In this document: positions 33,958 through 64,000 of the stretch, one piece after another
Numbering within the stretch: the stretch's first letter is position 1
How the letters are laid out: each line of letters begins with the position of its first letter
NCBI RefSeq assembly: GCF_000526495.1
Contig: NZ_JAGE01000001.1
Location: 2,724,001-2,788,000, forward strand
Origin: Ruminiclostridium josui JCM 17888
GTDB lineage: Bacteria; Bacillota; Clostridia; Acetivibrionales; DSM-1351
DNA length: 64,000 bases
Direction: 5' to 3'
The notes under the pieces: generated by a model
Seen by the model: only the letters and a program-made list of their open reading frames with translations
Databases searched by the model: none
What the model was told of the DNA's origin: nothing
Program-made: the position numbers and the translations under genes

Positions 33958-33991
33958 GAATTTCCTCTTTTCATTTTTCATTTATAAATTC

Positions 33992-34734: not shown

Positions 34735-35063
34735 ATGAGTAAGTATAACCTTAATTGGGATGAAAATAAATTAAAAAAATATATTAGCGAGGGACGGGGT
34801 CAAGGTGTAGGAAAAGACTACAAGCCATGGATTACTATACATGACTTCCCTTCTGACGGATTCAGCTCAAGGCAGCCTGGTTGGAAATCTAATCGGGTCT
34901 GCCATTTTTTGTCTAATAACGAGTTGAGATACTTCTATTTACTTGAATGGGCCGATGATGTAACAGATATACGAGAGCAATACCCCATGAATCTGGAGGA
35001 TACCATGAGGATTGCGGACAAGCTTGGTATTAAGCATCCGCAGAATAATAAGAACGATGTTCC
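34735..35063 (+). pseudogene. tnsA-like transposon endonuclease, 3'-truncated by an IS21-family element
   Basis: About 110 residues of the TnsA N-terminal region: GRGQGVGKDYKPWITIHDFPSDG (residues ~18-40, the family motif), VCHFLSNNELRYFYLLEW and DIREQYPMNLEDTMRIADKLGIKHPQ. The family's continuation, with the VMTTDF motif and the rest of the ~230-270 residues, is missing. The frame stops at 35088, 25 bp inside the IS21 end that starts at 35064. No second half is visible beyond 41231. TnsA is the strand-nicking partner of TnsB in Tn7-type transposons; TnsB, TnsC and TniQ are absent here. A relic of a Tn7-like element. Confidence 0.8.
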
Positions 35064-35141
35064 TGTCAATGACGGTGATAAAATGTAAGAAAACAGCGGT
35101 TAAATTTTGTATGTATATGGTGGTAACAAAATAACTTGTGA

Positions 35142-37057
<1,916 letters not shown>

Positions 37058-37058
37058 A

Positions 37059-37955
37059 AAAAAGCTCTCGGGTATTAATAGTAAGGACGATATACGTCTA
37101 AAAAATGAAATAAAAAAATTAAGGAAAATAGATGTTGAAACAATTAAAAATAATGGAGATTGGGCGGTTTTTGGACTTATATCTGGAGCTGAAAAAAAGG
37201 GGAGCCAATTAGTAGTAGAATTGCCCCATCAAGTGAGACAAGCCTTAATAGATAACACTTTTTATACAACTCTTGATTTAATGATGCTTAAAGGTCTTGA
37301 AGGGAAATATGCAATTATTCTTTATGAAATGGCTATAAGGTATCAAAAAGCGCAAATACCAGAAATGACTATTGAAGAATTTAGAAAACTTACAGGAACA
37401 GAAAATAATTACAATGACTTTGGAGTATTGCGACATAAGGTTTTAACTCCTGCTCTTGAGGAAATCAACTCGGATAAAACGGATATAATACTGGACTATA
37501 CAACCACAAACAAAGGCAAGAAAACGATGACAATCAAGTTTTTTGTTAAACAAAAGCCAAAACCAAGGATAAAAGAAATATCAGCAGCCAGTGAGATTTT
37601 AGCAACAACAGAACAATTGACAATTGATGCTGTTATAGAGGTTGTTGAGCTAGAAGAAATAGCAAAAATCCTTAAACCTATAGAAGTGGATGCAGCCGAA
37701 CTTGTTAAAGTTATAAAGGCAAATGATATTGATTTGGAACTGCTACAACAATATGTTAATGTTATAAAAAACAACGAAAAAAACGTAGCTAAAAAAATAG
37801 GTACTCTGATTTATGCTTTCAAACACAAAATGACACCTGAAAGTGTTTCTGTTATGATTAAATCAAACAAAGATAAGCTTTCAAACAGGGATAATTTTGA
37901 GCAAAGGGAGTATTCTGACGAATACTGGAGTACATTCTTTACAAATAAGCCATAA
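37059..37955 (+). pseudogene. Rep_3-type plasmid replication initiator, without start codon
   Basis: The frame is open from 37053, inside the istB junction, to the stop at 37953-37955. Residues beginning SKDDIRLKNEIKKL and continuing through WAVFGLISGAEKKG to LMMLKGLEGKYAIILYEMAIRYQK, EEFRKLTGTENNYNDFGVLRHKVLTPALEEIN look like the winged-helix core of Rep_3 initiators. There is no ATG, GTG or TTG before TTG 37221, which would cut off ~45 residues of good coding sequence. So I read it as a 5'-truncated gene. The C-terminal ~100 residues are a less conserved, helical, valine- and glutamate-rich tail. Confidence 0.7.
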
Positions 37956-41647: not shown

Positions 41648-43423
41648 TTGATTACTAATAAGTATAGTATAAGTTTATTATGGCCAGATAAGTGTGAAAA
41701 CAGTTGTTTTGATAAAGAGAACACAAACGTTATAAACGATTTAGATATTGAGAGAATCGCTTCAGAGATGAGTATTGATAATTACCATAAGTTAAGTATT
41801 GATACATTGCTTTCAAATTTTACTTCAGATCCTTCAACTATACAATATCGTTTAGATATAATAGAAGATTTAGTAAACAATCCTGGTCTTGAGGACGGGA
41901 TAAAAGGTTTAATACCAATGATAGATGAATTGACTAGCATCATCGCAAGAAATCAATTCGAAGATATGAATTTGCTTCAGACAGTTAAAAGAATTTCTGA
42001 ACTAGGTGTATTTGTACAATGTATCGACGAGTTGAAAAATCTGTTGGTAAACTTCAAGAGTAGCATAACATCCAAGGGACTGAAAGAGCTTCTTAATTTA
42101 ATTGATGAAATTACAAATGAGGAGTCTTTTATTTCTTTATGCGCTGAACTTCCGAAGCTGAGACTTGGAGTAAGTAACATTTCCAGTGTTACAATCGGTA
42201 TTAACCTTGATTCAATGCTTTATCCAAAAGAAGCTGTCTTAGTATCATTAAATGACCAGCCATATAAGGAGCAAAGCTTTTTTGACCGTATTTCAGGTAA
42301 ATTTACAGGCGAAGATAAGTTAACTGGGATTACCCCACTATATAAGATAAATAAAAATGCTAATTCAGATAGAGTAATGGCGGACACATTACTGGCAGGA
42401 GACAAGAAATATGATTATTTTTTAAAGGCTTTAAACAGCAATCTTGAAAGTCTTATAAAGTCAGTGGTTCGTCCTATGGTTCCGGTAGTAAACAAATATC
42501 TTAATACAAACACTGCATTTTTAACTAAGTTATTACCAGAGTTTTGTTACTTGCTGGGAGCAGTAAAACTGATAAGAAAACTAAAGGCTAGTGGATTAGC
42601 GGTTTGCAAACCAAAAGTTGCTGAAATCGAAAGACGTGTATGTACAGTTAAGAGTAGTTATAATGTTATTCTTGCTTTAAATATACATGATAGAAATCCT
42701 GAGGCAGATTTGGGAAACACCATAGTATCAAATGATATATCTTTTGATGATCAAGGAAGAATATTTGTGTTAACTGGACCGAATCAGGGAGGTAAGACTA
42801 CTTATATTCAATCCATAGGATTGGTTCAGATTCTGTTTCAGTTAGGCGTTTTTGTTCCGGGAATACAGGCAGAAATAAGCCCGGTGGATAGTTTGTTTAC
42901 GCATTTTCCAGTAGAAGAGACTTTTGATTCAAATATGGGACGTATGGCGGAAGAGTGCAATAGGCTCAATCAAATATTCTGCCAGGCTACTAGACATAGT
43001 ATGATACTTTTGAATGAGTCTTTTTCCAGTACCAGTTCTACTGAAGCACTTTTTATAACCAGGGAAGTACTATTAGGGCTAAAAATGCTTGGTACACGTG
43101 CTATTATTACAACACATGTTCATGAACTTGCAACGGACCTTGATGTCATAAATTCATCAATACCTGGGGACAGCACTATAGTCAGTTTGGTTTCAAGAGT
43201 TGTAAAAGAAAGTTCAAGTAGCGATTCAGCTAAGAGAACTTACAAGATAACTCAAGGAGCACCTAGTGGATTAAGCTATGCAAGAGATATTGCACTAAGA
43301 CATGGTATCAGTATTGATAAAATTATGGGCATATTACTGGAGCGCCGTCAAATTAATCATTTGGTTGAAATGAATGAAATAAATGAAGTTTATGATAAGA
43401 TATATCACAAAGATTCTTTATAG
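41648..43423 (+). CDS. MutS-like ATPase at the head of the biosynthetic cluster
   Basis: 591 residues resembling the core and ATPase parts (domains III and V) of MutS, without the mismatch-recognition N-terminus. The ATPase has Walker A LTGPNQGGKTT (~377), with Gln in place of the usual Met, Walker B SMILLNESFSSTSSTEA, where NES replaces the usual DELGRGT, and ITTHVHEL. Other MutS-like proteins of this kind exist in clostridia; their role is not mismatch repair as far as known. Start is TTG 41648, seven bases after AGAGGGA. It is the first gene after the cluster promoter and is read in the same direction as the FAAL, AT and PKS genes. Confidence 0.75.
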   Translation: MITNKYSISLLWPDKCENSCFDKENTNVINDLDIERIASEMSIDNYHKLSIDTLLSNFTSDPSTIQYRLDIIEDLVNNPGLEDGIKGLIPMIDELTSIIARNQFEDMNLLQTVKRISELGVFVQCIDELKNLLVNFKSSITSKGLKELLNLIDEITNEESFISLCAELPKLRLGVSNISSVTIGINLDSMLYPKEAVLVSLNDQPYKEQSFFDRISGKFTGEDKLTGITPLYKINKNANSDRVMADTLLAGDKKYDYFLKALNSNLESLIKSVVRPMVPVVNKYLNTNTAFLTKLLPEFCYLLGAVKLIRKLKASGLAVCKPKVAEIERRVCTVKSSYNVILALNIHDRNPEADLGNTIVSNDISFDDQGRIFVLTGPNQGGKTTYIQSIGLVQILFQLGVFVPGIQAEISPVDSLFTHFPVEETFDSNMGRMAEECNRLNQIFCQATRHSMILLNESFSSTSSTEALFITREVLLGLKMLGTRAIITTHVHELATDLDVINSSIPGDSTIVSLVSRVVKESSSSDSAKRTYKITQGAPSGLSYARDIALRHGISIDKIMGILLERRQINHLVEMNEINEVYDKIYHKDSL

Positions 43424-43733: not shown

Positions 43734-46310
43734 ATGACTAGATTTACTGATTTGGTTCAAGCTATACAAACAAGGAGCAATGATAGCAATAAAGGTGTCA
43801 CATTCATATCAAGTGATGTTGAAGAGAATTTCGTAACGTATAAAGAACTTTATGAAAAAGCTGTAGGTATTTTAGGTTACCTTAATTCAAAGGGTTTGAA
43901 GCCCGGCGATGAGCTTATTCTTCAAATTGATGATAACAAAGATTATATTTTTATGTTCTGGGCATGTCTTCTTGGAAAAATAATACCCGTTCCCGTTACT
44001 GTAGGTAACAATGAAGAACATAGACTGAAGCTTTTCAGAATAATCGATATATTAAGTAACCCGTATATTGCGACAACTAAAAAAACATTCAAAGTTTTGG
44101 AAAACTTCACACAACAGAACGGGTTGAGTGAAAGTATGTTTTCAATTAAGAACAAAGCCCTATTCACTGATGAATTGCAAAGCATAGAGCCTGGAAATGT
44201 TCTCAGACCTCAAGAAAACGATATTGCTTTTATACAGTTTTCATCTGGTTCAACTGGTGACCCTAAGGGTGTTGTGCTTACACATAGTAATTTGATAGCA
44301 AATATCTACGCGGCTATCAGATGTTCTGGTACAGGGCCGGAAGATTCTATGTTAACGTGGATGCCACTTACTCACGATATGGGTATGATAGGTTCTCATC
44401 TGCTGCCTTTGGTTGCAGGAATTAATCAATATATTATGCCTACATCTCTATTCATCAGGCGTCCTTCACTTTGGTTGAAAAAGTCCCATGAGCATAAAGT
44501 TAATATACTTTCATCTCCTAATTTTGGATATAGATATTTGCTCTCATTTTATAAACCTGACAATTTTAAGGATTGGGACTTATCTCATATAAAAATCATA
44601 TATAACGGTGCAGAACCTATATCAGCAGAATTATGCAGAGAATTTCTTGGGAAAATGAAAGAACACGGACTTCAGAAAACAGCTATTTTCCCAGTGTATG
44701 GTCTTGCAGAAGCATCGGTTGCTGCTACTTTTCCGATACCGGGTGAAGAATTCATTGAAGTAAATCTCGACCGCAGACATCTAAATATCGGTGACAAAAT
44801 TATTGAAGCAGATAAAAGTGATATTAACTGTGTGACGTTAGTAAATGTTGGTTTCCCTGTGGATGATTGCAGTGTAAGGATTTGTGACGAGGCAGACAAT
44901 GTGCTTGAAGAGTGCTGCGTAGGACAGATTCAAATCAAGGGAAAAAATGTTACTTCTGGATACTACAGGAATCAAGTGGCTACCGATAATGCATTAACAA
45001 AGGATGGGTGGCTGAAAACAGGCGACTTAGGCTTTTTAAATGGCGGACGCTTGGTGGTAACAGGAAGACAAAAGGACATAATTTTTATAAATGGACAGAA
45101 TTATTATCCTCATGACATAGATAGAATAGCAGAAAAGGTAGAAGGGGTAGAATTCGGTGGAGTAGCTGCATGCGGCGTTTACAACGAGGAACAGCAAAAA
45201 GAAGATGTAGTTATTTTTACAGTGTTTAAGGGGAAGAATGAAGATTTTGTTGACATTTTATTAAATGTTAAGAAGTTGATAGGCAGACAGCTAGGTATAG
45301 AAGTGAGAGATGTTATACCGCTAAGAAAATTACCAAAGACTACAAGCGGAAAAATTCAAAGATATAAGCTTGCAAAAGAATATACAGACGGGTGCTTCGA
45401 CGATGTCATAGGTCAGCTGAAACAGCTTGTAGATGAAGCTATTAAAGATATAAAGGTAGATGTGCCTGTAAATGAGATAGAAGAAAAACTGATTAAAATA
45501 TGGTCTGGTGTATTAAATGTGGAAAACATAGGTGTAAATGACAACTTTTTTGAAATCGGGGGAAACTCTTCTTTGATGGTACAAATGCTGTCACAAATAG
45601 AAGCTGATTATCCAGATGCAATAAACGTTACAGATCCATTTGAAGTTCCTACAGTAAGAAAATTGGCTCAGCATATATATAAAACTATATCTAAGCAAGA
45701 GTCAACATCGTCTGTCAAAACGCTGGAACTTCCAGAGAGATTCTTTGTTAACGCATCAGAAAACTATCCGTGGAATACACAGCAGGAAATTAGCTTCACT
45801 TTAAACGAAGAGTCTTGTTACAAAATGAGAAATATATCTAAAATTGAAGGAGTTCAAACAGAGGATATATTACTATTGTTGTACGCTTTTGCTATATCTC
45901 AGGTTTCAGGGGTCAGACTGCTGGATATACAATCTTTGTTTAATAAAAATCAGGTTATAAATAATGTCAGAGTTGACTTTTCAAATTCATTTGAACTTTC
46001 TGATTTGCTCAAAGAAGTAAATCAGGCACGAAGAGAAAGTTCCGGCAGCGGTGTGAACTTTGAAGATATGGTACAAGCTTGTATAAACAAGACTCAGCAT
46101 TCAATATTTCCTCTAATATATTCTAAGAGTAGCCTTAAGGCAAATGTTGATTTGATGGAAGTCTTTGATATGGTTGTCAGGATAGAAGATTACGAAGATT
46201 CTATCAACATCTTTTGCGAGTACAATGCTGCAAGGCTGAAAAAAGAAGGAATTGAGCAAATAGTAAACCAGTATATACATATAATTAATTCATTGATTAA
46301 CAAGTATTAA
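43734..46310 (+). CDS. Fatty-acyl-AMP ligase with carrier domain and half condensation domain
   Basis: 858 residues. Adenylating domain (~1-560) of FAAL type: FSSGSTGDPKGVVLTHSN (~167-184), TWMPLTHDMGMIGSHLLPL, YGLAEASVAATF and the final TTSGKIQRYKL with catalytic Lys. It should activate a fatty acid as acyl-AMP and load the following carrier domain (~575-650, GGNSSLM with Ser612 for phosphopantetheine). The last ~190 residues (~665-858) match only the C-terminal half of a condensation domain, without HHxxxDG. Loads the starter of the assembly line. Preceded by GGGGGAAAAA. Confidence 0.88.
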   Translation: MTRFTDLVQAIQTRSNDSNKGVTFISSDVEENFVTYKELYEKAVGILGYLNSKGLKPGDELILQIDDNKDYIFMFWACLLGKIIPVPVTVGNNEEHRLKLFRIIDILSNPYIATTKKTFKVLENFTQQNGLSESMFSIKNKALFTDELQSIEPGNVLRPQENDIAFIQFSSGSTGDPKGVVLTHSNLIANIYAAIRCSGTGPEDSMLTWMPLTHDMGMIGSHLLPLVAGINQYIMPTSLFIRRPSLWLKKSHEHKVNILSSPNFGYRYLLSFYKPDNFKDWDLSHIKIIYNGAEPISAELCREFLGKMKEHGLQKTAIFPVYGLAEASVAATFPIPGEEFIEVNLDRRHLNIGDKIIEADKSDINCVTLVNVGFPVDDCSVRICDEADNVLEECCVGQIQIKGKNVTSGYYRNQVATDNALTKDGWLKTGDLGFLNGGRLVVTGRQKDIIFINGQNYYPHDIDRIAEKVEGVEFGGVAACGVYNEEQQKEDVVIFTVFKGKNEDFVDILLNVKKLIGRQLGIEVRDVIPLRKLPKTTSGKIQRYKLAKEYTDGCFDDVIGQLKQLVDEAIKDIKVDVPVNEIEEKLIKIWSGVLNVENIGVNDNFFEIGGNSSLMVQMLSQIEADYPDAINVTDPFEVPTVRKLAQHIYKTISKQESTSSVKTLELPERFFVNASENYPWNTQQEISFTLNEESCYKMRNISKIEGVQTEDILLLLYAFAISQVSGVRLLDIQSLFNKNQVINNVRVDFSNSFELSDLLKEVNQARRESSGSGVNFEDMVQACINKTQHSIFPLIYSKSSLKANVDLMEVFDMVVRIEDYEDSINIFCEYNAARLKKEGIEQIVNQYIHIINSLINKY

Positions 46311-46326
46311 TTAAGGAGAATAAAAT

Positions 46327-47595
46327 ATGATTAAGACAGCAATTTTATTTCCGGGTCAAGGTTCACAATATGTTGGTATGGGCTCTGACTTGTACCAGAG
46401 GTCAAGCATCGCAAGACAGACATTTGAGGAAGCAAACGATGTACTTGGTTTTGATATTAAAAGGTTATGCTTCGAGGGGAACAAAGATGAACTGACAGAG
46501 ACACAAAATGCACAGCCGGCTATTCTTACTGTCAGCATTGCCGCTTTTCGTACATATATGCAGGAAATTGGGCTAGAACCATCTTGTCTTGCTGGACATA
46601 GTCTAGGAGAGATATCAGCGTTGGTAGCTAGTGATGCCATCAGTTTTTCTGACGGTTTAAAACTTGTCAGAAAAAGAGGAGAATTAATGAAGGAAGCAGG
46701 AGTTAAAGCTCCCGGCACTATGGCTGCAGTAAGTGGTGTGTCCCAGGAGGCACTTATGGAAATGTGCAAGAAGGCATCGCAGGATGGAAAAATTGTTGTT
46801 TTATCTAATATTAATTCAAAAGATCAGATAGTTATTTCCGGACATAAAGAAAATGTAGAGAAAGCTTGTGACTTGTTGGTGGGTGAAGGTGGGACTGCTA
46901 CTTTTTTAAAGGTTAGTGCTGCTTTTCACAGCCCTCTTATGAATCCGGCAGCTTCCGACTTTAGTGAAGAACTTGTGAAATATAACTACAACCAGATGAA
47001 GAGAACTGTTATTTCAAACGTAACAGCACTTCCATACGAATCAGAAAAAGAAATTGTAAATAAGCTCAAACTTCAGATTATAAGTCCCGTTATGTGGAAA
47101 CAGTCCATGGAATATTTACGTGACAAAGGTGTAGAAGTTGCTGTGGAGATGCAGCCCAAAACTGTATTGAAAAACTTAATGAGAAAGAATGCTCCCGAGA
47201 TAAAGACATATTCATTTGATAGAAACGCTGATGTGCAGTCACTTAAGGAATTTATTTCAGTTATGAATAAAGAAAAAAATAATAAAACAAGTAATAAAAC
47301 TAATGTTGTTGACAGGTGTCTTGCAATCGCAGTCTGTACAAGGAATTATAACTGGAATGACGAGGAGTACACAGCTGGGGTAATTAATCCATATAGACAG
47401 ATTAAATCAATGAGAGAGAAGATTGAGAGTGAGAATAGAGAGCCAACCTATGATGAAATGATAAGTGCTTTAAATATGCTAAAATCTGTTTTCAAGACAA
47501 AGAAAGTTCCTGAAATTGAGCAAAAGGAAAGGTTTGAACAGATTTTCAATGAAACGGGAACAGCAGAATTGTTTATTGATTTCAGTATTCTTTAG
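46327..47595 (+). CDS. Free-standing malonyl-CoA:ACP acyltransferase with C-terminal extension
   Basis: Supplies malonyl units in trans to the AT-less PKS modules. Residues 1-300 are FabD-like: FPGQGSQYVGMG at 8-19, the nucleophile Ser92 in GHSLGE and His201 in AFHSP, at the same numbers as in E. coli FabD. The ~110 residues after 310 are unlike FabD: a linker of Lys/Asn/Thr, then a segment with CTRNYNWNDEEY and a helical part to the end. In trans-AT clusters such tails occur. The gene lies between FAAL and the first PKS. TAAGGAG precedes the ATG. Confidence 0.9.
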   Translation: MIKTAILFPGQGSQYVGMGSDLYQRSSIARQTFEEANDVLGFDIKRLCFEGNKDELTETQNAQPAILTVSIAAFRTYMQEIGLEPSCLAGHSLGEISALVASDAISFSDGLKLVRKRGELMKEAGVKAPGTMAAVSGVSQEALMEMCKKASQDGKIVVLSNINSKDQIVISGHKENVEKACDLLVGEGGTATFLKVSAAFHSPLMNPAASDFSEELVKYNYNQMKRTVISNVTALPYESEKEIVNKLKLQIISPVMWKQSMEYLRDKGVEVAVEMQPKTVLKNLMRKNAPEIKTYSFDRNADVQSLKEFISVMNKEKNNKTSNKTNVVDRCLAIAVCTRNYNWNDEEYTAGVINPYRQIKSMREKIESENREPTYDEMISALNMLKSVFKTKKVPEIEQKERFEQIFNETGTAELFIDFSIL

Positions 47596-47635
47596 TCTAT
47601 AGATTTCTAAATAGAAAATTTATAAAGGTGGTATT

Positions 47636-50600
47636 ATGGGAGTTAATCTTTCAGAATTGAGTTCCTTTGATTTAGATAAGGTAAAGAACGAAAGCGAGCA
47701 AAAGAGACTAACATATGATGACTCGATAGGTACAGATATAGCAATTATTGGTATGTCGGTAAATCTTCCTGAAGCAAATGACTTAAGCGAATACTGGAAC
47801 AACTTAAGAGACGGAAAAGATAGCATAGTTGAGTTTCCAGAAACTCGTAAGGGTGACATAGAGAAATATTTGCGTTCATTAGGTAGTGATACCGAGGACA
47901 TAGAATTTTTTCAAGCTGCATTTCTCAATGAGATAGATAAATTTGACTACGGATTCTTTAAGCTTACTCCAAGTGAAGCTAGCCTCATGAGTCCGGTTCA
48001 AAGGCTTTTTCTTGAAACCACTTATAAGACTATAGAAGATGCTGGGTACGGCGGAAGTAAGATTATGGGAAGCAAGACAGGAGTATTTGTGGGTTGCATT
48101 GGTGATGCTGAAGAAGTTACTTATGCAGACATATTATCACAGAGTGATAGTGCCCAGAATCCCAGCGCTTTCACCGGAAATCTGACATCAATGATTCCCA
48201 GCAGGATTTCTTATTTCCTTGATTTAAAAGGGCCAAGCATGGTTGTAGATACAGCATGCTCATCTTCTCTTGTTGCGATACATCTGGCATGCCAGGCAAT
48301 AAGAAACGGAGAATGCGATATGGCTTTAGCAGGAGGCATAAAGCTTTTCCTGGTTCCGGCCATAAATAAAATTAAGCTTAGAATTGATTCCTCCAACTAT
48401 CGTTCAAAGGCTTTTGACGATAGTTCTGACGGTATTGGTGTAGGAGAAGGTTCGGCTGCTGTAATGCTGAAACCACTAAGTAAAGCATTAAGAGACAGAG
48501 ACAACATATATGCGGTAATAAAGGGAAGTGCCATAAATCAGGATGGGAATTCAATAGGTATTACTGCTCCCAATGTAGCTGAACAAGCAAATGTTATAGC
48601 AAAGGCTTGGAAAAATGCAAGAATAAATCCTGAAACTATATCTTACATAGAGGCTCATGGAACAGGAACCAATCTAGGGGACCCTATTGAAATTGAAGGA
48701 ATAAAAAGGGCGTTTTCACGTTTTACAAAGAAGAAACAATTTTGTGCTATTGGTTCAGTTAAAACCAACATAGGTCATTTGAATGAAGCCGCAGGTATTG
48801 CTGGGCTTATTAAGCTTGTTTTATGCTTAAAGTATGGTGAAATCCCACCGAGTATTCATTTTAACTTGCCTAACAGGAAAATTGATTTTGAACAATCACC
48901 TGTTTATGTAAACGACAGACTAGTAAAATGGGACACAAATGGAGATTTGAGAAGGGGTGCGATAAGCTCTTTTGGTTTCAGCGGAACCAACTGTCATATG
49001 GTTCTGGAAGAAGCTCCTGCAATCAGACATGCTGGTGAAGTAAAAAGTGCAGGATTGTTTGTAGTGCCCATTTCTGCGAAATCTGAAGAGGCTTTGGACA
49101 AGCTCCTTGCTGCTTACAACAGCTTTTTATACAAAAATCCTAACATAGAAATTAGAGATTTATGCTATACGGCCAGTTTAGGAAGAGAACACCATAATCA
49201 CCGTGTGGCTGTAATTGCACAGGATTTGCTATCCTTGAAAGAATCAATAAGTAAGCTTTGCAGTAACGGTGTTAGTAAATCAAACTATGAAAATGTTTTC
49301 TTCAATAACTTCAAAGTTATACGTGGTACGAAAAGTACTGAATCAGATGTTGGTCTTACTGAGGACAAACTGGAAGGTATGAATAGACTGGCACATTTTA
49401 AACTTGAGGAATTTGTCAGAACTAATAAATCCGATAAGGCATTATTAAGTGAAATTTGTAGTCTATACTCTAACGGAGCAGATATTGATTGGAGCTTTTT
49501 GTATGAAAAAGAACGTCCTCAAACAATAAGTCTGCCTACATATGTTTTTGACAAGGAGCGCTGCTGGTGCGAGATACAGGAGGTTGCTGCTCAGAACTGT
49601 AAATATGATAGTCAAAAAAGCTTCTATAACATTGTATGGAAGCAAAAGCCTCTGTTGAAAGATGAAAAGGGTGATACCCCACAAACTATAGTAATTCTGA
49701 GAAGTTCTGAAAAGAGCTATTCAAATTTTGAAGATAAGCTTAAAAACAGTTCTGCCAGAATAGTTTCGGTAACATTAGGGGACGGTTTCAAACAGATAAA
49801 TAACAACAAATACATTACAGATACATTTGAAAATAGTTTTAACCTTCTTTTTGACAAAATAAAAGAGTCAAAATCCGTACAAATAGTGTATTTATTGGCT
49901 GCTGAAATAAATGAGAGTGCGAAAACCACAGATGAATTGCAGAGAAATCTGGAGCATGGATTATATAGCCTTTTCAATATTGCAAAAGCAGTTAAAGGTT
50001 ATGATTTTGATAGCACTAGTATTCTTATAGTAGCTGGGAATATAAGCAAAATTGCTGAGAATGACAATATAATTATTCCGGAAAATGCAACTATTTCAGG
50101 CTTGGCTAAGGTCATAAATCGTGAGTTTACCAATATCTCTTGCAGGCTAATAGATATTGATGATGAGTTTAGTGAGGATGATTTGGTTGGCGAACTTCAT
50201 TTAAGGAGTGGTGAACAGCAGGTTGCCTATAGAAATGGTAACAGGTATGTCGAAAGCTTCACGGAGTTTGATATTGACAAATCCGGCAACTCAGAAGTAA
50301 AAGTACGGGAGAATGGCGTTTATATAATAACCGGAGGAATTAGTGGAATAGGTTATGAAGTTGGCAAATACCTGGCGAATGAAGCCAAGGTTAATATTAT
50401 ATTGGTTAATCGCTCGAAAATGCCCCAACGTGACACATGGGATACTATTTCGGCTAACAACGAAAACAAGAAGCTTTTGGAGAAGATATCAGCTATTAAG
50501 AGTCTTGAAAAAACAGGCTCAACTGTTGAATACTACAGTGCGGATGTTTCAGATGAGATTCATGTACGAAATCTCATAAATAGCATAAAAGAAAAGTATG

Positions 50601-53600
50601 GTAATATCCATGGGATTATTCATAGTGCCGGTGTTGCTGATGACAGACTCATTATCGAAAAAAATAAAGAGGATTTTGACGCTATTATCCGAGCCAAAGT
50701 TTATGGTACTTGGTTATTAAATCATTTTTCAAATGCAGAAAACCTTGATTTTTTCATATTGTTTTCATCAGTATCATCCATATTGGCTGCTCCCGGACAA
50801 GGTGATTATTCTGCTGCAAATGCATATCTGGATTCCTTTAGTGATTATAGAAGGGGCAATGGAAAAAAAGCCACAACCATTAACTGGGTTGCATGGAAAG
50901 AAATAGGAATGGCTGTAGAAAAGGGATTTACTGCGGATACCACTTTTAAAGCAATAACTACAAAAAAAGCCATGGATTGCTTTGATAAGGTGTTTCATAG
51001 AGATATCTCAAGAGTGTTGATTGGTGAGCTGAATTTTGAGAGTAATATGGCAGCTTTATTGGAGAAAGCGCCTTTTGAACTTTCTGATGATATAAAACAT
51101 AAATTAAAGGAATCTGCAAAACAGCGCGCTTTATTAAAGGAACAGAATGTCTCAAATAATAGGCCCAATGTGAGACTGAAGGGGAAAGAAACAAACCAAT
51201 ACAGCAAGATTGAGCAGCAAATTGCTGAGGTGTGTATGGCTGTCCTTGGATTTAAAGAAATTGACATATATGATAATTTCTTTGACTTAGGTGCAGATTC
51301 CATTGCGCTTTCACAGATGTTTAAAGAGTTGGATAAATATTTTCCGAATATGCTAAGTGTGACAAAGGTGTTTGCGTATCCTAGTATTTCAGCTTTAGCA
51401 AAATATCTGAGTGAGCAACTGGACGAATCAGATTCCCAAGGTTCTCATGATAATCTCATGCTTGAGGAAGAATCGGAACCTGATAAAAACGACAGTATTG
51501 CTATAATCGGGATAGGTTCATACTTGCCAACAGGCCATAATTTGGATGAATTCTGGAATAGCATACGAAATGGTAAAGACCTTATTAGAAATATACCGGA
51601 AAATAGAAAAAAGGATATTGAAAAATATCTTTCATTTAAAGGGGAGGATATCGGAAATCTTAAATTCTTAGAAGCAGCATATTTGGAAGAAATTGACGGA
51701 TTTGACTACAAATTCTTTAAATTATCTCCAAAGGAAGCGTCATTGATGGATCCCAACCAGAGAAAATTCCTAGAGACAGCCTGGACTGCTATCGAGGATG
51801 GAGGCTATGGAGGAAATAAATTAAAGGGGACAAAAACAGGTGTTTTCGTAGGGTTTTCTAATAACCCGCTTAATAACTATGTGGATATAATTTCAGATGT
51901 AGAGCCGGGGGAACTTCCTATTTCCTTGTCTGGGAACCTGACATCCATAATCCCCAGCAGAATTTCATATCTCCTTGACCTTAAGGGACCCAGTATGCTT
52001 ATAGATACTGCATGTTCTTCGTCCTTGACTGCTGTACATACGGCATGCAGAAGTTTAAAGAGCGGAGAGTGTGATATAGCAATTGCGGGCGGAGTAAAAA
52101 TAAATATAATGCCCTTGGACAATGAAATAAAAATCGGCATTGAATCATCAACAGGCCGAACAAGAGCCTTTGATGATGATTCTGACGGGACAGGTATAGG
52201 AGAAGGAGTAATAAGCTTTCTTTTAAAACCTTTAAAGAGGGCAATTGAGGATAAAGACAACATATATGCCATAATCAAGGGAAGCGCTGTGAATCAGGAC
52301 GGGACTTCTGTGGGTATCACAGCACCAAATGTTAAGGCACAAACAGAGGTAATCCTTGAAGCATGGAGAGATTCGAAGATTGATCCGGCTACATTGTCAT
52401 ATATCGAAGCCCACGGAACAGGTACAGAATTAGGTGATCCTCTTGAAATAGAAGGATTGAATGAAGCATTCAGGAAGCATACCAAAAAAAGAAATTTCTG
52501 TGCCATAAGTACTGTAAAATCAAATATAGGACACCTTTATGAGGCTTCTGGTATGGCAGGATTATTAAAGGCAGTTTTGTCCTTAAAACATAAAGAACTG
52601 GCTCCGTCCATCCATTTTGTGAAACCAAACGATAAGATAGATTTTATTGATACTGCAGTTTATGTAAATGACAGGTTGACAAAATGGGATGTAAATAACA
52701 CAGCCAGAAGGTGTGGAATAAGCTCTTTCGGATTTAGTGGAACCAACTGCCATGTAGTTCTTGAAGAAGCTCCTGAAATTAAATATGAATCAGTAGCCCA
52801 TGACAGCAGTGCGGAAATAATCGGACTCACTGCAAAGAGCGAAGCTGCACTATATGAATTGGTGAGAAGATATAAAACATTTCTCCAGAATTCAGAAGGA
52901 ATATGTTTAAAAGATATATGCAGCACTGCAAACACGGGAAGAACCCATCATAATTTCAGACTGGCTGTAGTTGCTAAAGATAAAAAAGAACTTCTGTATA
53001 AGCTTGATTTTATTCTGGAAAACAAGTTTAGTGGATTAGACAGGGCTATAGGATTCTATGGTAAACATTTTGTCATCATGATCGACAAAGAAATCCTTCA
53101 GCAAGGCGAGTTAAGACAGAAGGAGAAACTTGAGCTTACTACTCAGGTGGGATTACTCACTGAGGAATTGGCAGAGCAGGATATATTTGATAACAGCTTA
53201 TTGGAGCGTTTATGTGAGTTATATGTAAAGGGAGCTGACGTTGACTGGGATATTCTTTATAGGGGAAATAGAGCAGGAAAGAAAGTAAGTTTGCCTTCCT
53301 ACCCCTTTGAAAAACACAGGTGTTGGATAAATATAGACTCAGCTGAAAAACGCAACTTTAGTGATAACATCAAAGTTATACACCCATTATTGGAAAAGCA
53401 AATGGTTGAATCCATAGACCAGATTATTTTTTCTACTGAGTTTAGCCCTAAAAAACATTTTGTACTATCAGATCACATAATTATGGGAAGCTATGTAATA
53501 CCCGGGACTACATACATAGAAATGATATATCAAGCGGGCCGAAGGTTATCTGATGATGGTCAGATACAGATAAATGATATAACTTTCTATACTCCTGTGG

Positions 53601-56185: not shown

Positions 56186-59100
56186 TGGAAAAAATTAAGA
56201 AATATATATATGAGCAGGTAATATCTCAGAAGATATCAAAAAATGAAGCTGCATTGATGTTAAAGGAGCTATATGAAAACCAAGAGGATAACAATAAGGA
56301 TATAGCTGTTATAGGTATGGACTGCAGACTTCCAAAAGCAAATAATATAAATGAATTCTGGGATAACTTGCTAAGCGGCATAGATTGTATCGGAGATTTT
56401 CCCGAAAACCGAAGAAAAGACATTGAAAGTTTTGTTAGAAACAAAGGTAAATTTACAAATGAGGATTTTATTAAACAAGGATATATAGATGATATATCAG
56501 GGTTTGACCCTGCCTTTTTCAATATATCACCTGCAGAGGCAAATACGATGGACCCGGTTCAGAGACTGTTTTTGATGGTGGTGTGGGGTGCATTAGAAGA
56601 TGCAGGGATAAATTTTTCAAAAATAAGCGGCTCTAAAACTGGTGTCTTTGTAGGAAAGGCTCATTTGAATGAACCTCTTTATAAGGATTTTATAGATGAC
56701 TTTGATATGATAGCATTTAACGGCTCAGCTACTGGGATTTTATCCAGTCGAATATCATACATGCTGAATCTGAATGGCCCAAGTCTTGTAATTGATACAG
56801 CGTGTTCATCTAGTCTGGTGGCATTGCATACTGCTTGCCAGTCTTTGATAAATAATGACTGCGAAGTAGCTATAGTCGGTGGGGTAAGGGTAATGCTTCT
56901 GCCTGTTAAGGATAACAAGCTTGAAGCTCTTGAGTCTCCTGATTACAAATTAAGACCCTTTGACAACGAAGCAAATGGAACCGTTTGGGGTGAAGGTGTA
57001 AGTGCTGTTGTCTTAAAACCATTGTCAAAAGCCATTAAGGATAGAGACAATATATATGCAGTAATAAAAGGCAGCGCATGTAACAATGATGGTGCATCAA
57101 ACGGGATTTCTGCACCTAATGCCTATGCCCAAGAAAAACTGATTGTGGATTTGTGGGAGAAGAAAAAAATCAATCCCGAAAGCATATCCTATATAGAAGC
57201 TCATGGTACAGGAACAGCTTTGGGTGATCCAATCGAGATAAAAGGGATTACAAATGCATTCAGAAGATTCACCAACAAGAAGCAGATATGTGCTATCGGA
57301 ACTGCCAAGGGAAATATAGGACATTTGGTAGCTTCGTCGGGATTGGCAGGATTAATTAAGGTATTGATGGCTATGAAGCATAAAAAAATACCACCTACAA
57401 TCAATTTTAATGAACCGAATGCCTATATAAATTTCATAGAGTCTCCTGTTTACTTTAATGACAGGACAATTGAGTGGAAAGATGACGAAAAGCCATTAAG
57501 AGCAAGTGTAAGCTCATTTGGAATCAGCGGTACAAACAGTTATGTAATTGTTGAAGAACCTCCCAAACTTAAGGAAAAGAGCAATATAGCGACTGGTAAG
57601 GATTTTGTATTCACTTTATCCGCTAAAAGCAGTACATCATTAAAAAAACTAATATGTAAATATGTTGACTTTCTTGAAGATGAGACAGGCTATGATTTAG
57701 AGGATGTTTGTTTTACTGTAAATACAGGTAGAGTTCATCACAATCACAGGATTGCAATAGTAGGAAATAGCATAGCTGAACTAAAAGGCAAGCTTGCTAT
57801 TTTAAATAAAGGTGAACTGAGAAGCATACCAAAGGAAAACATATACTATGGTGATTTCAGGCTGGTTTCAGATGTAAAAAGGGAAAGAGCAGATGGACTT
57901 ATTACAAAGTCAGACAAAAAGAAACTTGATGAGCTGTCCAAAAGCAAAGCTTTGGAATATGTTGAGTGTGGGAAGAATGAAAGCAGCCTTTTAAAGGATT
58001 TATGTGATTTGTATGTTAATGGTGCAGATATTCCATGGGACACCTTGTTTTTAGAGTCTGAAGCAAGAAAGGTAAGTTTGCCCAAATATCAATTTGATCT
58101 TAAAAGGTGCTGGCCGGAAAGCAGGGGCAAATCACCAATAGAAGCAAGGTTTATAAAGAATACTTCCGACACAGAGATGTTTCATGGGGATAACCATGAG
58201 ATACACCCTTTGCTTGGAAAACTTTATCTTAGAACTTTGAACCAAGACATATACATAAATGAACTTAATCCTTCTTTGCAATGGGTAATTGGAGAACATA
58301 AAGTTGCTGGGAATTTTGCAATGCCCGGTGTTTCATTTATTGAGATGGCGTTGTGTCTTGGAAAAAAATACTTTGACACTGAGTATATCCGATTAGCCGA
58401 TATGGCGGTTATATTTCCTCTTATGCTTAGGGAAGGAGAGACTAAGAGGATTCAAACAATAGTAAAGAAGCTGAAGGGTTATCTGGAGTTTGCTGTTGTT
58501 GGAGAAACAGAAGATAAGAATAACAATAACGGCTTCATTGAGTATGTTCAAGGAAAGATATATCCTTTGGATGAAAAGGCCGAGAAGAAACTGGATATCG
58601 CTTTACTGTCAGAGGAAATGGACAAATTGGGCAAAATCAATCCCAATAACTTTACACAGGGATTTATCCAGTTTGGAAGCAGATGGACTGATTGTGTTTC
58701 GCTGAGCACAGGCAAAACATCTGCAGTTGTGGAGTTGACTTTACCTGAGAACTTTGCTGAAGACTTAGAGAAATATTACCTCCATCCTGCATTACTTGAT
58801 ATGGCTTTAAATGCTTTGGCTTTGACTGTAAAGGAAAGGTATCTTCCATTTGCGTATAAGAATATTAATATTTATGGGCCTACACCATCCAAATTCTACA
58901 GCTATATTCATAACTTAAAGGATAGTGACCAGCGGCAGGAAATGAAGTCCTACAATATTGACTTTATAGATAGCGAAGGTAAGGTTTTTGCTGAAATTGA
59001 AGAGTATACCATCAAAAAGGCTAATAATATTTCAAATATGGAAGCAGATAACCCTATGTTTTACACTACAAAGTGGGTACAAAAAGACCTTGCTTTGAAT

Positions 59101-62100
59101 GAAACTCCCGTAACACATGGGAAAGCTATTGTATTTAAGGACAACCTTGGACTTGGTGACGATTTGGTACAAGAGCTGAAAAACTGCGGGTGGCAGGTTA
59201 TTGAGTTGAGACTCGGCACTCAATATACAAAAACTGATAATAGCAGATATGAGATTTCTGTAGATGAAAGGGATTATATAACCTTTATAAACGAAGTAAA
59301 TTTTGATGGACTTACACATATATTTCATTTATGTACGGCAAATGATATGCAGGAGGTTGAAGATACAGATGCTCTTTCAAATAGCCTGGAAAAGAGTGTT
59401 TACAGCTTGTTTTCACTCACAAAGCATTTAATTGGCAAAGCACAAAATAAGAAAGTGGATATGTATATAGTATCCAGAAATGTAAACTCGGTGACGGGAA
59501 ATGAAGAGTTCCTGCAACCGCAGTATGCATGTGTATTCGGCTTAGCTAAGGTTATTAATAATGAGTATCCGGATTTCAGATGTAGAAGCATTGATAGTGA
59601 CGGTAGTATATCGGCTAAGGACATTATATCAATAATAGGCTGTTCCGATATTGAAGCTCAAGTCGCATTCAGAAATAAGATGTTCTACACAGAAGAGATT
59701 CAGCCAATGAGAACTGAGGCTATACCAGAGGAAATAGTGGAAATCAGTTCCGATGGTGTATATGTAATTACCGGAGGTACCGGTGGAATAGGTCTGGAAA
59801 TATGCAGATATCTTGCTGCCTGTTCTAAGGTGAACCTTGCACTGGTAAACAGGTCTTCTTTGCCTAAACGTGAAATGTGGGATGAAATACTCCAAAAGAA
59901 TGAGGATTCACGTCTATGCAATATATTAGAGAAGCTTAGAGCCATTGAACAACAGGGTTCTCAAATTGTTTGCTACAGTGCTGATGTAAGTGAATATGAG
60001 CAAATGGAAGCTGTAATGGAGGATTTAAGAAGAAAGTTCGGACGAATCAGAGGAATAGTACATAGTGCTGGTATTGCGGGTCAGGGTCTTTTGATGAACA
60101 AAGACTTATGTACATTCCAAAACGTAATTAAGCCAAAGGTATATGGCGCATGGATTCTGGATAAATTGACTGAAAATGAACAGCTTGATATGTTCGTTCT
60201 GTTTTCTTCTATTGCGTCATTTGTTGCATACCCGGGACAAGGAGACTATACGGCAGCTAACTCATTTTTAGATGCATTTTCTGCCTACTGCAGCAAAAAA
60301 GGAAGAAAAATGCTTTCTATTAACTGGCCTGCGTGGAGTGAAACAGGTATGGCAGTAAATCACGGTGTAAATATTGATATGATATTTAAACCAATATCTA
60401 CCGAGGATGCCATAAATGCATTTGGAAGTATAATTCATAAATCTGTCCATAGAGCGATAATAGGTGAACTGGATTATGAAAGCTCAATGATTGAAAAGCT
60501 TCAAATTGGTTTATCAAAAAGTATAAGAGGTATAATTAATAAACACAAAAACAGTTTAATTTCAAACACAAAAAATATTGACACTTTAGCTGATGTTGTT
60601 CTTAAAGGCCGTAAAGATAGCGATTATACTCAGGCAGAAATCAAGGCTGCAAAGATATGGGGAAATATATTTGGACTGCAGGAAGTCAATATATTTGACA
60701 ACTTCTACGATTTGGGCGGAGACTCCGTCTTTGCAATGAAATTAGTAAATAGTTTAAATAAGCATTTAAATGTAAACTTAAGCATTGTAGACGTGCTTAA
60801 TTATCAAAGTGTGAATGAGTTGGGGGCTTACCTTGATGAAAAAGGGCTTAATAATGAAAGTACAATTGAATTAAATGATGTAGCTGTTTTGAAGCGTGCT
60901 GAACATAAAGAGTTTTATCCTGTAACATCGCAGCAAAAAGCTATTTATCTTTTATATCAGAGGTTTCCTGAGAACATCAGCTATAACACACCTATAATAA
61001 TTAACATTGAAGGAAACCCGGATATAGCTCAATTTGAGCAAATATTCAGGCAGTTGATTAAGAGACATGAATCATTAAGGACATCCTTCCATATGCATAA
61101 GGGAGTACCCGTATTTAAAATCCATGATGACGTAACATTTGACATTAAATATTCTGAGGCTGTGGGTACGCCTGTTGAGAAGATAATAAATTCCTTTATA
61201 CGGCCGTATTGTCTGGAAGAACCTACTTTACCGAGAGTAGAGATTGTTAAGACTGGGCTTTTAAACTACACTCTTATGTTAGATGTTCACCATATAATCG
61301 CAGATAGAACTTCGGTAGGGATTATGCTCAATGACTTTTTCAATTTGCTTAAAAATAATCCATTAACTGAGATTGCTGCCCAATATAAAGACTATGCCGA
61401 ATGGCAATACAGCTATTACAACTCGGAAGCAATAAAAAAGACTGAAGAGTATTGGCTTGATGTTTTTAAAGGAGAAATTCCACTGTTAGATATTCCTACA
61501 GATTACAAAAGACCTCCGATACTATCTTATGAAGGTGAAAGTGTCAAATTTTCATTGGATGAGAAGTTGTGTGATGAACTTAACAGTATAGCAGCAACTG
61601 CTAATACAACCATTAATATGGTCTTGACTTCCGCATTCTATATTCTGCTTAATAAGCTAACATCTCAGGAGGACCTAGTTATAGGCTGTAATGTAATGGG
61701 GAGAACCCATGAGGATATTCAGAACACCATGGGGATGTATGTAAATACTATTCCTGTAAGAAGTTATATTAGCGGCGATTTGTCATATAAAACATATTTG
61801 GATAACGTTAAGAACAGTTGTCTGTTAGCATATGACAATCAAAATTACCCGATTGAACGTCTTCTAGAGAAGCTTGACTTTAAGAGAATACAAAACAGAA
61901 ATCCTCTATTTGACGTTTGTTTCAATATGATGAATATTCCTGACAGTATTGGTTCTGATAAGGAAATTTCATTGCAGGGACTTGTTATAAGGCCTGTAGA
62001 TTTTGAAAATAAGACTGCAAAGTTTGATATTACTCTTAGTGCATCTTTATCAGGCAATAAGGTTGAAATGTTCATGGAGTACAGGACATGCTTGTTTAAA

Positions 62101-62256
62101 AGAAATACTATAGAAAGTTTTATAAAGCATTACATTGAGATACTGGAAGTAATTAAAGACGATATTAACATCCGTTTAAACGATATTTTATTGAAAAATG
62201 ATATAGCCGTAATAAAGTACGAAGCAGAAGATGATGGAGATTTTATACTTGATTGA
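56185..62256 (+). CDS. AT-less PKS-NRPS hybrid: KS-DH-KR-ACP-C
   Basis: 2023 residues. An N-terminal docking helix precedes the KS (~38-455; Cys207 in DTACSSS). Then come the DH (~672-945; His705 in EHKVAGNFAMP, Asp872 in HPALLDMA), KR (~1190-1380; no LDD motif), a carrier (~1490-1560; GGDSVFA) and a condensation domain (~1570-2010). The C domain has HHIIADR with His1702, His1703 and Asp1707, where Arg1708 replaces the usual Gly. It passes the polyketide to the amino acid of the next protein. Start GTG 56185 overlaps the stop of the previous gene by one base (TAGTG), preceded by GGAGG. Confidence 0.93.
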   Translation: MEKIKKYIYEQVISQKISKNEAALMLKELYENQEDNNKDIAVIGMDCRLPKANNINEFWDNLLSGIDCIGDFPENRRKDIESFVRNKGKFTNEDFIKQGYIDDISGFDPAFFNISPAEANTMDPVQRLFLMVVWGALEDAGINFSKISGSKTGVFVGKAHLNEPLYKDFIDDFDMIAFNGSATGILSSRISYMLNLNGPSLVIDTACSSSLVALHTACQSLINNDCEVAIVGGVRVMLLPVKDNKLEALESPDYKLRPFDNEANGTVWGEGVSAVVLKPLSKAIKDRDNIYAVIKGSACNNDGASNGISAPNAYAQEKLIVDLWEKKKINPESISYIEAHGTGTALGDPIEIKGITNAFRRFTNKKQICAIGTAKGNIGHLVASSGLAGLIKVLMAMKHKKIPPTINFNEPNAYINFIESPVYFNDRTIEWKDDEKPLRASVSSFGISGTNSYVIVEEPPKLKEKSNIATGKDFVFTLSAKSSTSLKKLICKYVDFLEDETGYDLEDVCFTVNTGRVHHNHRIAIVGNSIAELKGKLAILNKGELRSIPKENIYYGDFRLVSDVKRERADGLITKSDKKKLDELSKSKALEYVECGKNESSLLKDLCDLYVNGADIPWDTLFLESEARKVSLPKYQFDLKRCWPESRGKSPIEARFIKNTSDTEMFHGDNHEIHPLLGKLYLRTLNQDIYINELNPSLQWVIGEHKVAGNFAMPGVSFIEMALCLGKKYFDTEYIRLADMAVIFPLMLREGETKRIQTIVKKLKGYLEFAVVGETEDKNNNNGFIEYVQGKIYPLDEKAEKKLDIALLSEEMDKLGKINPNNFTQGFIQFGSRWTDCVSLSTGKTSAVVELTLPENFAEDLEKYYLHPALLDMALNALALTVKERYLPFAYKNINIYGPTPSKFYSYIHNLKDSDQRQEMKSYNIDFIDSEGKVFAEIEEYTIKKANNISNMEADNPMFYTTKWVQKDLALNETPVTHGKAIVFKDNLGLGDDLVQELKNCGWQVIELRLGTQYTKTDNSRYEISVDERDYITFINEVNFDGLTHIFHLCTANDMQEVEDTDALSNSLEKSVYSLFSLTKHLIGKAQNKKVDMYIVSRNVNSVTGNEEFLQPQYACVFGLAKVINNEYPDFRCRSIDSDGSISAKDIISIIGCSDIEAQVAFRNKMFYTEEIQPMRTEAIPEEIVEISSDGVYVITGGTGGIGLEICRYLAACSKVNLALVNRSSLPKREMWDEILQKNEDSRLCNILEKLRAIEQQGSQIVCYSADVSEYEQMEAVMEDLRRKFGRIRGIVHSAGIAGQGLLMNKDLCTFQNVIKPKVYGAWILDKLTENEQLDMFVLFSSIASFVAYPGQGDYTAANSFLDAFSAYCSKKGRKMLSINWPAWSETGMAVNHGVNIDMIFKPISTEDAINAFGSIIHKSVHRAIIGELDYESSMIEKLQIGLSKSIRGIINKHKNSLISNTKNIDTLADVVLKGRKDSDYTQAEIKAAKIWGNIFGLQEVNIFDNFYDLGGDSVFAMKLVNSLNKHLNVNLSIVDVLNYQSVNELGAYLDEKGLNNESTIELNDVAVLKRAEHKEFYPVTSQQKAIYLLYQRFPENISYNTPIIINIEGNPDIAQFEQIFRQLIKRHESLRTSFHMHKGVPVFKIHDDVTFDIKYSEAVGTPVEKIINSFIRPYCLEEPTLPRVEIVKTGLLNYTLMLDVHHIIADRTSVGIMLNDFFNLLKNNPLTEIAAQYKDYAEWQYSYYNSEAIKKTEEYWLDVFKGEIPLLDIPTDYKRPPILSYEGESVKFSLDEKLCDELNSIAATANTTINMVLTSAFYILLNKLTSQEDLVIGCNVMGRTHEDIQNTMGMYVNTIPVRSYISGDLSYKTYLDNVKNSCLLAYDNQNYPIERLLEKLDFKRIQNRNPLFDVCFNMMNIPDSIGSDKEISLQGLVIRPVDFENKTAKFDITLSASLSGNKVEMFMEYRTCLFKRNTIESFIKHYIEILEVIKDDINIRLNDILLKNDIAVIKYEAEDDGDFILD

Positions 62257-62291
62257 TGAATAGGACATGTAATTAACAAGGAGGATTTGAA

Positions 62292-64000
62292 ATGAGTGTA
62301 TTACGTAAGGTATTGGCTTCCAGCGATAGTTTTTCTGTAGAAAAAAAGTTTTGGGAAGACAGATTATCCGGTGATTTTGTAAACGGAAGTTTTCCATATG
62401 ATTTTAGGGAACAGGATACGGACGAACCAGAGTATGGCATATGCGAATTTGAGTTTGACGGTAAAATTTCATCCAAACTGCTTAGTATCAGTAATAACTC
62501 ACATAAGAGACTTTTCCTAATACTTATGGCAGCAGTTAAGTGTCTCCATTATAAGTATACGGGCTCAAAGGATACCGCTATTGGTACATCGGTGTATAAA
62601 CAGCAAGAAGAAGCAGATTATGTTAATAATATACTCTTAATCAGGGATTCCATAGACGAGGGTACCTCCTTTAAAGATATGCTTCTATTGGTCAGGGAAT
62701 CAGTGAATAAAGCCTATGAAAATGCCAATTACCCTTTAGAATATTTATGGAACGATTCAAAGGAAAATGCAAGGAGATTGTTTGATTCTGCCGTTATATT
62801 ACTTAATATTCATGACAGATCCTATTTAGATAGTGTCATGCCTTCACTGATTTTTTCATTTATAGAAGCTGATGGAGTAATCAAGGGGCATTTGGAGTAC
62901 AATACTAAGCTTTACCGAAGTTCAACTATGCAAAATATGATAGCTCATATGAAGAATTTACTTAAGTTGATTTCGGAAGACATAAACATAAAAATATCAG
63001 ATACAGATATTTTATCACCTGAGGAAATTAATAAGATTCTTTTTGAGTTTAATGATACTGATGCAAATTATCAAAAGGATATGACAATACACAGGATGTT
63101 TGAGGAGCAGGTTGAAAAGACGCCTGACAACATTGCTATTTCCTTTGGTGACAGAAATATAACATATAAAGAACTGAATCAGAAATCAAATCAAGTGGCA
63201 AGGCTTCTGCAGGAGAAGGGGATATTACGCAACAGTATTGTTGCTATAGTTCTGGAACGTTCCCCTGAAATGATAATCGGGGCATTGGGGGTATTGAAGG
63301 CAGGGGGTGCATACCTGCCTATTGATCCCACATATCCTCAAGAGAGAATCAGGTATACTTTGGAAGATTCTGAAACAAAGGTTATGCTGACACGGAATGA
63401 ACTTGTATACGACTTAGACTTTAAGGGAGAGATACTTGATTTAAGTGATGAGGGCATATACCAAGGTGACATTTCTAACATTGAATCAGTAAATTCACCG
63501 GATGATTTGGCATATATAATTTATACTTCCGGTACAACCGGAAAACCCAAAGGTTCAATGATTGAGCATAGAAATGTTATTAGACTTTTATCCAATGACA
63601 AGTTTCAGTTTGATTTCAGCCAAAATGATATTTGGACAATGTTTCATTCATTTTGCTTCGATTTCTCAGTTTGGGAAATGTATGGAGCTTTATTGTATGG
63701 CGGTAAGCTTGTTATTGTACCGAAACATGTTGCACAGGATACAAAGGAGTTTTTAAGCCTTTTAAAACGGGAAAGAGTAACTGTTTTAAACCAAACACCT
63801 ACGGCTTTTTATAACCTCTCGGATATAGAGGAGGAGCAAAACGAAAGGGACTTGAGTATAAGATATGTCATTTTTGGGGGTGAAGCCTTAAAACCTGTTA
63901 AATTGAAGCCTTGGAGAGAGAAGTTTCCCCATGTCAAGTTTATCAACATGTACGGGATAACTGAAACCACCGTTCACGTTACATATAAAGAAATAACCAC
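62292..64000 (+). CDS. NRPS, N-terminal part: half condensation domain and threonine-type A domain (runs off window)
   Basis: Starts at ATG 62292 after AAGGAGG and stays open to the edge (569 residues visible). Residues ~1-250 match only the second half of a condensation domain (starting near FWEDRLSGD), without HHxxxDG. The A domain follows: YKELNQKSN (A1), YIIYTSGTTGKPKGS (A3), FCFDFSVWEMYG (A4), NQTPTAF, VIFGGEA and FINMYGITETTVH. The ten-residue pocket read from these is D-F-W-N-I-G-M-V-H (the last Lys lies outside the window), the known code for L-threonine. Confidence 0.92.
   Translation, partial: MSVLRKVLASSDSFSVEKKFWEDRLSGDFVNGSFPYDFREQDTDEPEYGICEFEFDGKISSKLLSISNNSHKRLFLILMAAVKCLHYKYTGSKDTAIGTSVYKQQEEADYVNNILLIRDSIDEGTSFKDMLLLVRESVNKAYENANYPLEYLWNDSKENARRLFDSAVILLNIHDRSYLDSVMPSLIFSFIEADGVIKGHLEYNTKLYRSSTMQNMIAHMKNLLKLISEDINIKISDTDILSPEEINKILFEFNDTDANYQKDMTIHRMFEEQVEKTPDNIAISFGDRNITYKELNQKSNQVARLLQEKGILRNSIVAIVLERSPEMIIGALGVLKAGGAYLPIDPTYPQERIRYTLEDSETKVMLTRNELVYDLDFKGEILDLSDEGIYQGDISNIESVNSPDDLAYIIYTSGTTGKPKGSMIEHRNVIRLLSNDKFQFDFSQNDIWTMFHSFCFDFSVWEMYGALLYGGKLVIVPKHVAQDTKEFLSLLKRERVTVLNQTPTAFYNLSDIEEEQNERDLSIRYVIFGGEALKPVKLKPWREKFPHVKFINMYGITETTVHVTYKEIT

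Follow-up and report, generated by a model that had tools for sequence, protein, structure and literature searches.

What does the assembly line at the end of this stretch of Ruminiclostridium josui JCM 17888 DNA make, and how are its proteins joined to one another? The window, that is, the whole stretch of 64,000 nucleotides that was analyzed, holds the front half of a hybrid trans-acyltransferase (trans-AT) polyketide synthase (PKS)-nonribosomal peptide synthetase (NRPS) cluster. The cluster measures 45 kb, runs from position 43734 to about 88914, and includes a discrete AT and an ABC exporter; five further modules lie beyond 64000, where the window numbering is continued ("extended" below). 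The genes point to a product of the form acyl-(7-OH-dienoyl)-D-Thr-thiazole-MeThr-Leu-malonate-glycerate, if each module acts once and in order, and to lone lobes of condensation (C) domains as connectors between proteins. We put the probability of this full explanation, comprising the line, the product from its head to its glycerate end, and the lobe connectors, at roughly 0.7. No described product of this assembly line was found in our literature searches.

Domain organization and predicted product

The first five proteins, p1 to p5, are encoded on the forward strand. In p1 (43734..46310), a fatty acyl-AMP ligase (FAAL; residues 1 to 560) is followed by an acyl carrier protein (ACP; residues 578 to 652) and a half-condensation tail, as read from Pfam matches to AMP-binding, PP-binding, and, weakly, Condensation, from the NCBIfam fatty acyl-AMP ligase model, and from the domain map. 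p2 (46327..47595) is a discrete malonyl-type AT with a GHSLG motif; it is FabD-like, matching Pfam Acyl_transf_1 and scoring above the cutoff of TIGR00128 (fabD). p3 (47636..56185) has the architecture KS-KR-ACP-KS-DH-KR-ACP, with ketosynthase (KS), ketoreductase (KR), and dehydratase (DH) domains, and p4 (56185..62256) is KS-DH-KR-ACP-C. p5 begins at 62292, is open at the window edge (64000), and continues to 71708 (extended) as half-C lobe-A_Thr-PCP-E-Cy-A_Cys-PCP-Ox-C, where A is adenylation, PCP peptidyl carrier protein, E epimerization, Cy cyclization, and Ox oxidation. It is followed by p6 (71729-78826, extended), a half-C-A_Thr-PCP-C-A_Leu-PCP protein with a methyltransferase insert in A_Thr and a C-terminal tail, and by p7 (78802-85374, extended), a KS-ACP-C-FkbH-PCP-TE protein ending in a thioesterase (TE).

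The catalytic motifs of the KS (DTACSS, HGTGT, and NIGH), KR, and DH domains and the ACP serines are all intact. KS1 of p3 (47735..49015, forward strand) has all three KS motifs, the first DH (53378..54220, forward strand) has HIIMGSYVIP and HPCMLD, and the second DH keeps both its His motif (HKVAGNFAMP) and its Asp motif (HPALLD). Such a set of domains with intact motifs is not attributable to chance. The preliminary description, made from the window, had listed FAAL-ACP, a free AT, KS-KR-ACP, two KS-DH-KR-ACP modules, the second with a C domain, and an A domain. We found each of these with intact active sites and in that order, but the half-C tail of p1, the half-C lobe before the A domain, and an altered motif in the p4 C domain had been missed.

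From aligned A domains we read again the nine-position threonine code, DFWNIGMVH, already reported for p5, and found it a second time in p6. The further codes are DLYNLSLIW for cysteine and DAWFLGNVV for leucine. In front of the threonine A domain of p5 there is a half-condensation lobe and not a full C domain. We had considered the p6 insert, which lies between motifs A2 and A3, as O-methylating by its likeness to KtzH, and dropped this assignment because the KtzH insert sits at a8-a9 (PMC11355689). Methyltransferase inserts at a2-a3 are S- or N-methylating according to the same review.

On this architecture, a fatty acid would be loaded by FAAL onto the ACP of p1 and passed to KS1 via the C-domain-lobe tail of p1, and three malonate extensions would yield a 7-hydroxy-2,4-dienoyl chain. 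This chain would be joined to threonine, which would then be epimerized; cysteine would be added next and be cyclized and oxidized to a thiazole, and a methylated threonine and then leucine would be appended. The fourth KS would add an unreduced malonate. In the last module, the terminal PCP would be charged with D-glycerate by FkbH, the C domain would form an ester between the β-ketoacyl chain and a hydroxyl of the glycerate, and TE would release the product, with half-condensation lobes as the non-catalytic links between proteins. The formula predicted for the linear acid is C(n+29)H(2n+42)N4O12S; a lactone or tetronate would have one H2O less (764.3666 with an octanoyl starter), and methylation by the radical-SAM protein of the cluster, should it occur, would add 14. 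KR1 has an LDD-like ADD motif that is absent from KR2 and KR3, so the geometry of the hydroxyl group and of the double bonds is weakly predicted.

Assignment as a trans-AT system

Domain searches found no embedded AT domain in p3, p4, or p7. Together with the discrete FabD-like AT, KS linkers of the RhiE/CurL type, and the position of the KSs in the tree, this supports the assignment of the cluster to the trans-AT PKSs. In a tree of 26 KSs, built without characterized references, all four cluster KSs fall within a clade of AT-less KSs, apart from those followed by an AT. The trans-AT type had been proposed at the outset, and a grouping with cis-AT KSs had been named as the result that would speak against it; the tree shows the AT-less clade instead. 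The best matches of KS1 among solved structures are largely trans-AT KSs, PksL included, with the cis-AT KS CurL interleaved. An apparently very close match of KS1 to a chain of 7zma (706 bits) was rejected, as the score is the sum of two KS domains of about 333 and 367 bits.

The terminal module

The FkbH domain of p7 scored 305.7 bits against TIGR01686 (cutoff, 146.65) and has the DxDxT motif in the form DCDNT. It is one of only two FkbH domains in the genome, each of which lies behind a C domain. In p7, a C domain with an intact HHxxxDG motif stands directly before FkbH and the thiolation (T) domain, and the same motif occurs in all C domains found before FkbH. Nine of 15 such C domains, that of p7 included, form one clade with SH-aLRT support of 100, and this clade spans several phyla, with loci of the Ruminiclostridium type and of other Clostridia, Bacilli, and Aminicenantes; over the whole C-domain tree, the position before FkbH requires four changes. 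C-FkbH-T lines were seen in a scan of named genomes in Aminicenantes, Cohnella, Halalkalibacter, Pedosphaera, Kordia, Paenibacillus, and Clostridia bins. The lines of Aminicenantes and Pedosphaera end in C-FkbH-carrier-TE, and that of Halalkalibacter reads FAAL-ACP-C-A-PCP / AT / KS-ACP-C-FkbH-PCP-reductase. These features point to a last module that loads glycerate through FkbH and whose C domain is predicted to be ester forming. No FkbI- or FkbK-like genes were found near the cluster, and therefore a glyceryl rather than a hydroxymalonyl unit is expected.

Two relatives show other continuations of this module. In Halalkalibacter urbisdiaboli (L034 7985-15013), the KS-ACP-C-FkbH-PCP-reductase protein has a BurF-like ending with a complete FkbH. 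A member of the genus (G007, L027+L028, G007:C1:1036001-1066000) encodes a 4,261-residue protein in which two tandem C-FkbH-T modules follow KS-DH-KR-ACP, which predicts two successive glycerate units.

The module could instead lead to a 3-acyl-tetronate, if the α carbon of the β-ketoacyl glycerate ester attacked the glyceryl thioester in a Dieckmann cyclization. This would be the oxygen counterpart of tetramate formation by PKS-NRPSs. A β-keto group is expected, since KS4-ACP lacks a KR, and the Halalkalibacter module has a reductase in the place of TE, as does the butenolide-forming BurF. Known tetronates share the building blocks, though they are made with FabH-like enzymes (PMC12304814). 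Among the cluster genes, domain searches found no stand-alone FabH-like enzyme, free ACP, or free FkbH of such a pathway, and the FkbH of the cluster is fused within p7. Related lines continue KS-ACP-C-FkbH-PCP into C-A modules, so a β-keto ester need not cyclize, and a tetronate intermediate has been excluded for BurF (PMC12304814). The nearest solved relatives of the p7 TE are the fengycin and surfactin TEs, which are macrolactonizing. We therefore regard release by macrolactonization or hydrolysis as more likely, although this argument is a weak one, and the tetronate as an unlikely outcome.

Half-condensation lobes between proteins

By fold and profile, the 202 C-terminal residues of p1, after the ACP (45702..46307, forward strand), are the C-terminal lobe of a C domain standing alone. 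AlphaFold predicts this tail with a mean predicted local distance difference test score (pLDDT) of 88.5 and a predicted template modeling score (pTM) of 0.87. Foldseek matches it to C domains with an E value of 3.6e-10, and hhalign aligns it to C-domain columns 205-429 with an E value of 7.8e-16. The lobe that would carry the catalytic HHxxxDG is missing. The C-terminal tail of p6 is a relative, and thus the p1-p3 and p6-p7 junctions have lobe tails and not COM, PAX, β-hairpin, or four-helix-bundle elements. The p3-to-p4 junction looks helical.

In a first set of loci, every tail lay behind a carrier domain, and the next gene of the line started with a KS in all eight cases. Carriers with a tail were thus followed by 8 KSs and no C domain, versus 11 KSs and 15 other domains after carriers without one (Fisher p 0.0045). 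An apparent tail-to-half-C pair (L046) was set aside from this count, as it proved to be a full C domain. A profile search with the tails covered 11 genomes of the genus and 398 of the phylum, and we examined 20 loci, a few of which overlap members used to build the profile. All tails were C terminal, and a KS protein came next in 17 of the 20, sometimes past an AT gene. The remaining three are orthologous 7,400-residue synthetases with no gene of the line within about 5 kb. A short N-terminal motif, e.g., LSSFDLDKVK or MLDFNLIEF, is common to the KS proteins that come after a tail, versus helical docking sequences on three trans-AT KS proteins that come after carriers without one.

Could the lobes be decayed leftovers of gene splitting, with no function? 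Their lack of the HHxxxDG half and their divergence to 20-28% identity would fit such an origin. However, the tails are a separate and confidently folded family that keeps a constant position across many clusters and genera, and decay would not confine them to carrier-to-KS junctions. The short N-terminal motif of the KS proteins behind them also speaks against decay, which we consider improbable. A second half-C family is found at the N termini of p5 and p6. Its members, widespread in Firmicutes, stand before an A domain in cases in which a full C domain closes the preceding protein. The p5 lobe (62292..63077, forward strand; pLDDT, 83.0; Foldseek E value to C domains, 2.6e-16) is proposed, from its position and modeled fold, to dock the terminal C domain of p4. 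More tentatively, the tails may be an undescribed docking class through which a chain goes from a carrier to the trans-AT KS of the following protein, with the N-terminal motif of that KS protein as partner, and the terminal module may at the same time form a glycerate-derived ring by a thiotemplated mechanism.

Our literature searches, with most subscription papers outside their reach, found no description of docking by condensation lobes. Nor are such lobes mentioned in the searched passages of a 2021 review of docking and a 2024 review of C domains.

Points against and remaining alternatives

Several points weigh against the full explanation. The chemistry of the whole cluster is deduced from its genes. 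The p1 tail probably docks onto the KS of p3, a role assigned from position and predicted fold. The C domain of p4 (60910..62214, forward strand) has HHIIADR in place of HHxxxDG. In a survey of 285 C domains not belonging to the FkbH-linked group, no other has DR, and because of this deviation there is some doubt on its activity.

FkbH proteins act also in hydroxy- and methoxymalonyl-ACP pathways, and the p7 domain might accordingly provide, in place of a glycerate ester, an extender of the hydroxymalonyl type or some unrelated unit of three carbons. We hold this to be very improbable: FkbH is fused between the C domain and the last PCP, no KS follows it, and FkbI and FkbK are missing nearby. 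Least probable of all, to the point of being nearly dismissed, is the product first proposed, with the line ending at its first amino acid and releasing an acyl 7-hydroxy-2,4-dienoyl threonine: the module order matches that description as far as the A domain, and the 7-hydroxy-2,4-dienoyl head and first threonine are consistent with the domains, but p5 runs 2,569 residues further, through E, Cy, A_Cys, Ox, and C domains, and another two NRPS/PKS proteins, with the methylated threonine, leucine, malonate, and glycerate modules, come before the TE. The downstream genes refute it as the full product, as its own caveat about modules past 64000 had foreseen, and it could survive solely as a shunt product.

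Genomic setting

The genome comprises 4.47 Mb in two contigs and has a low G+C content. Downstream of p7, the cluster encodes a B12-binding radical-SAM protein (p8; 85410-87071, extended), with no close relative among 391 genomes of the class, and the ABC exporter (p9 and p10; 87082-88038 and 88087-88914, extended). No close copy of the cluster was found in the other ten of the 11 genomes of the genus compared, where the best match to p4 is 38% identical. Immediately upstream there is a gene for a MutS domain V protein (41648-43423). Further upstream (31767-37955) we found a Mutator transposase, an IS21-type transposase pair, and a Rep3 initiator; the transposases and the Rep3 gene suggest acquired DNA. 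On the downstream side, the cluster is adjoined by a dockerin-bearing Sortilin/BNR-repeat protein, which we take to be a GH74-type xyloglucanase and which fits a cellulolytic clostridium of the Ruminiclostridium type. Past it (L010 13077-18714) lies a pair of radical-SAM genes, both with a protein lacking any Pfam match behind them, possibly a separate modification system.

Comparison with known systems

About 40 kb further downstream, the same genome has a second cluster (C1:2850791 to about 2875000; L012, L013), with the layout FAAL-ACP-C-A-PCP-KS-KR-DH-PCP, KS-PCP, C-FkbH-T-C-A-T-E, AT. Both clusters start with FAAL and have C-FkbH-T after a KS and carrier and a discrete AT. In the second, however, C-FkbH-T is followed by C-A-T-E, the C domain belongs to another clade, and one KS module shows a partial AT-like match. 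Three more genomes of the genus (G002, G005, and G007) keep its C-FkbH part.

In vioprolide biosynthesis, C-FkbH-T is established as the glycerate-ester module (PMC8949500). That synthetase likewise starts with FAAL, and the C domain of its C-FkbH-T unit has HHxxxDG and is predicted to esterify glycerate (PMC8949500). There, glycerate comes in after the acyl starter, whereas here its module is the last one, after a KS and directly before TE. In malleicyprol BurF (C-NEX-T-Red, with a terminal reductase), the C domain esterifies a carrier-bound β-ketoacyl chain onto a T-bound hydroxy acid, and NEX is the N-terminal part of FkbH, the remainder of which its authors suggest has been lost (PMC12304814). 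p7 and BurF thus share an ester-forming C domain (predicted for p7), an FkbH-type N-terminal domain, and then T, after PKS extension. Unlike in BurF, FkbH is complete in p7, glycerate is predicted to be made in place, and release would be by TE. The Halalkalibacter relative ends in Red like BurF but keeps a complete FkbH. Glycerate-capping relatives in which FkbH is kept and followed by TE, by Red, or by additional modules are natural tests of how a BurF-type chain fusion evolved.

Known docking classes (COM, PAX, SLiM/β-hairpin, four-helix bundle, and DHD) also join consecutive assembly-line proteins. In contrast to these, the tails of p1 and p6 are entire C-terminal lobes of C domains that face a KS. 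If such tails do dock, they would offer a new handle for the engineered joining of NRPS and trans-AT PKS proteins. Few polyketide-peptides are known from anaerobes, and this antibiotic-type line is complete and intact; its building blocks can be read, and the mass of its product can be clearly predicted. The cluster varies the known hybrid trans-AT PKS-NRPS theme by a predicted glycerate-capping end and by probable condensation-lobe docking elements.

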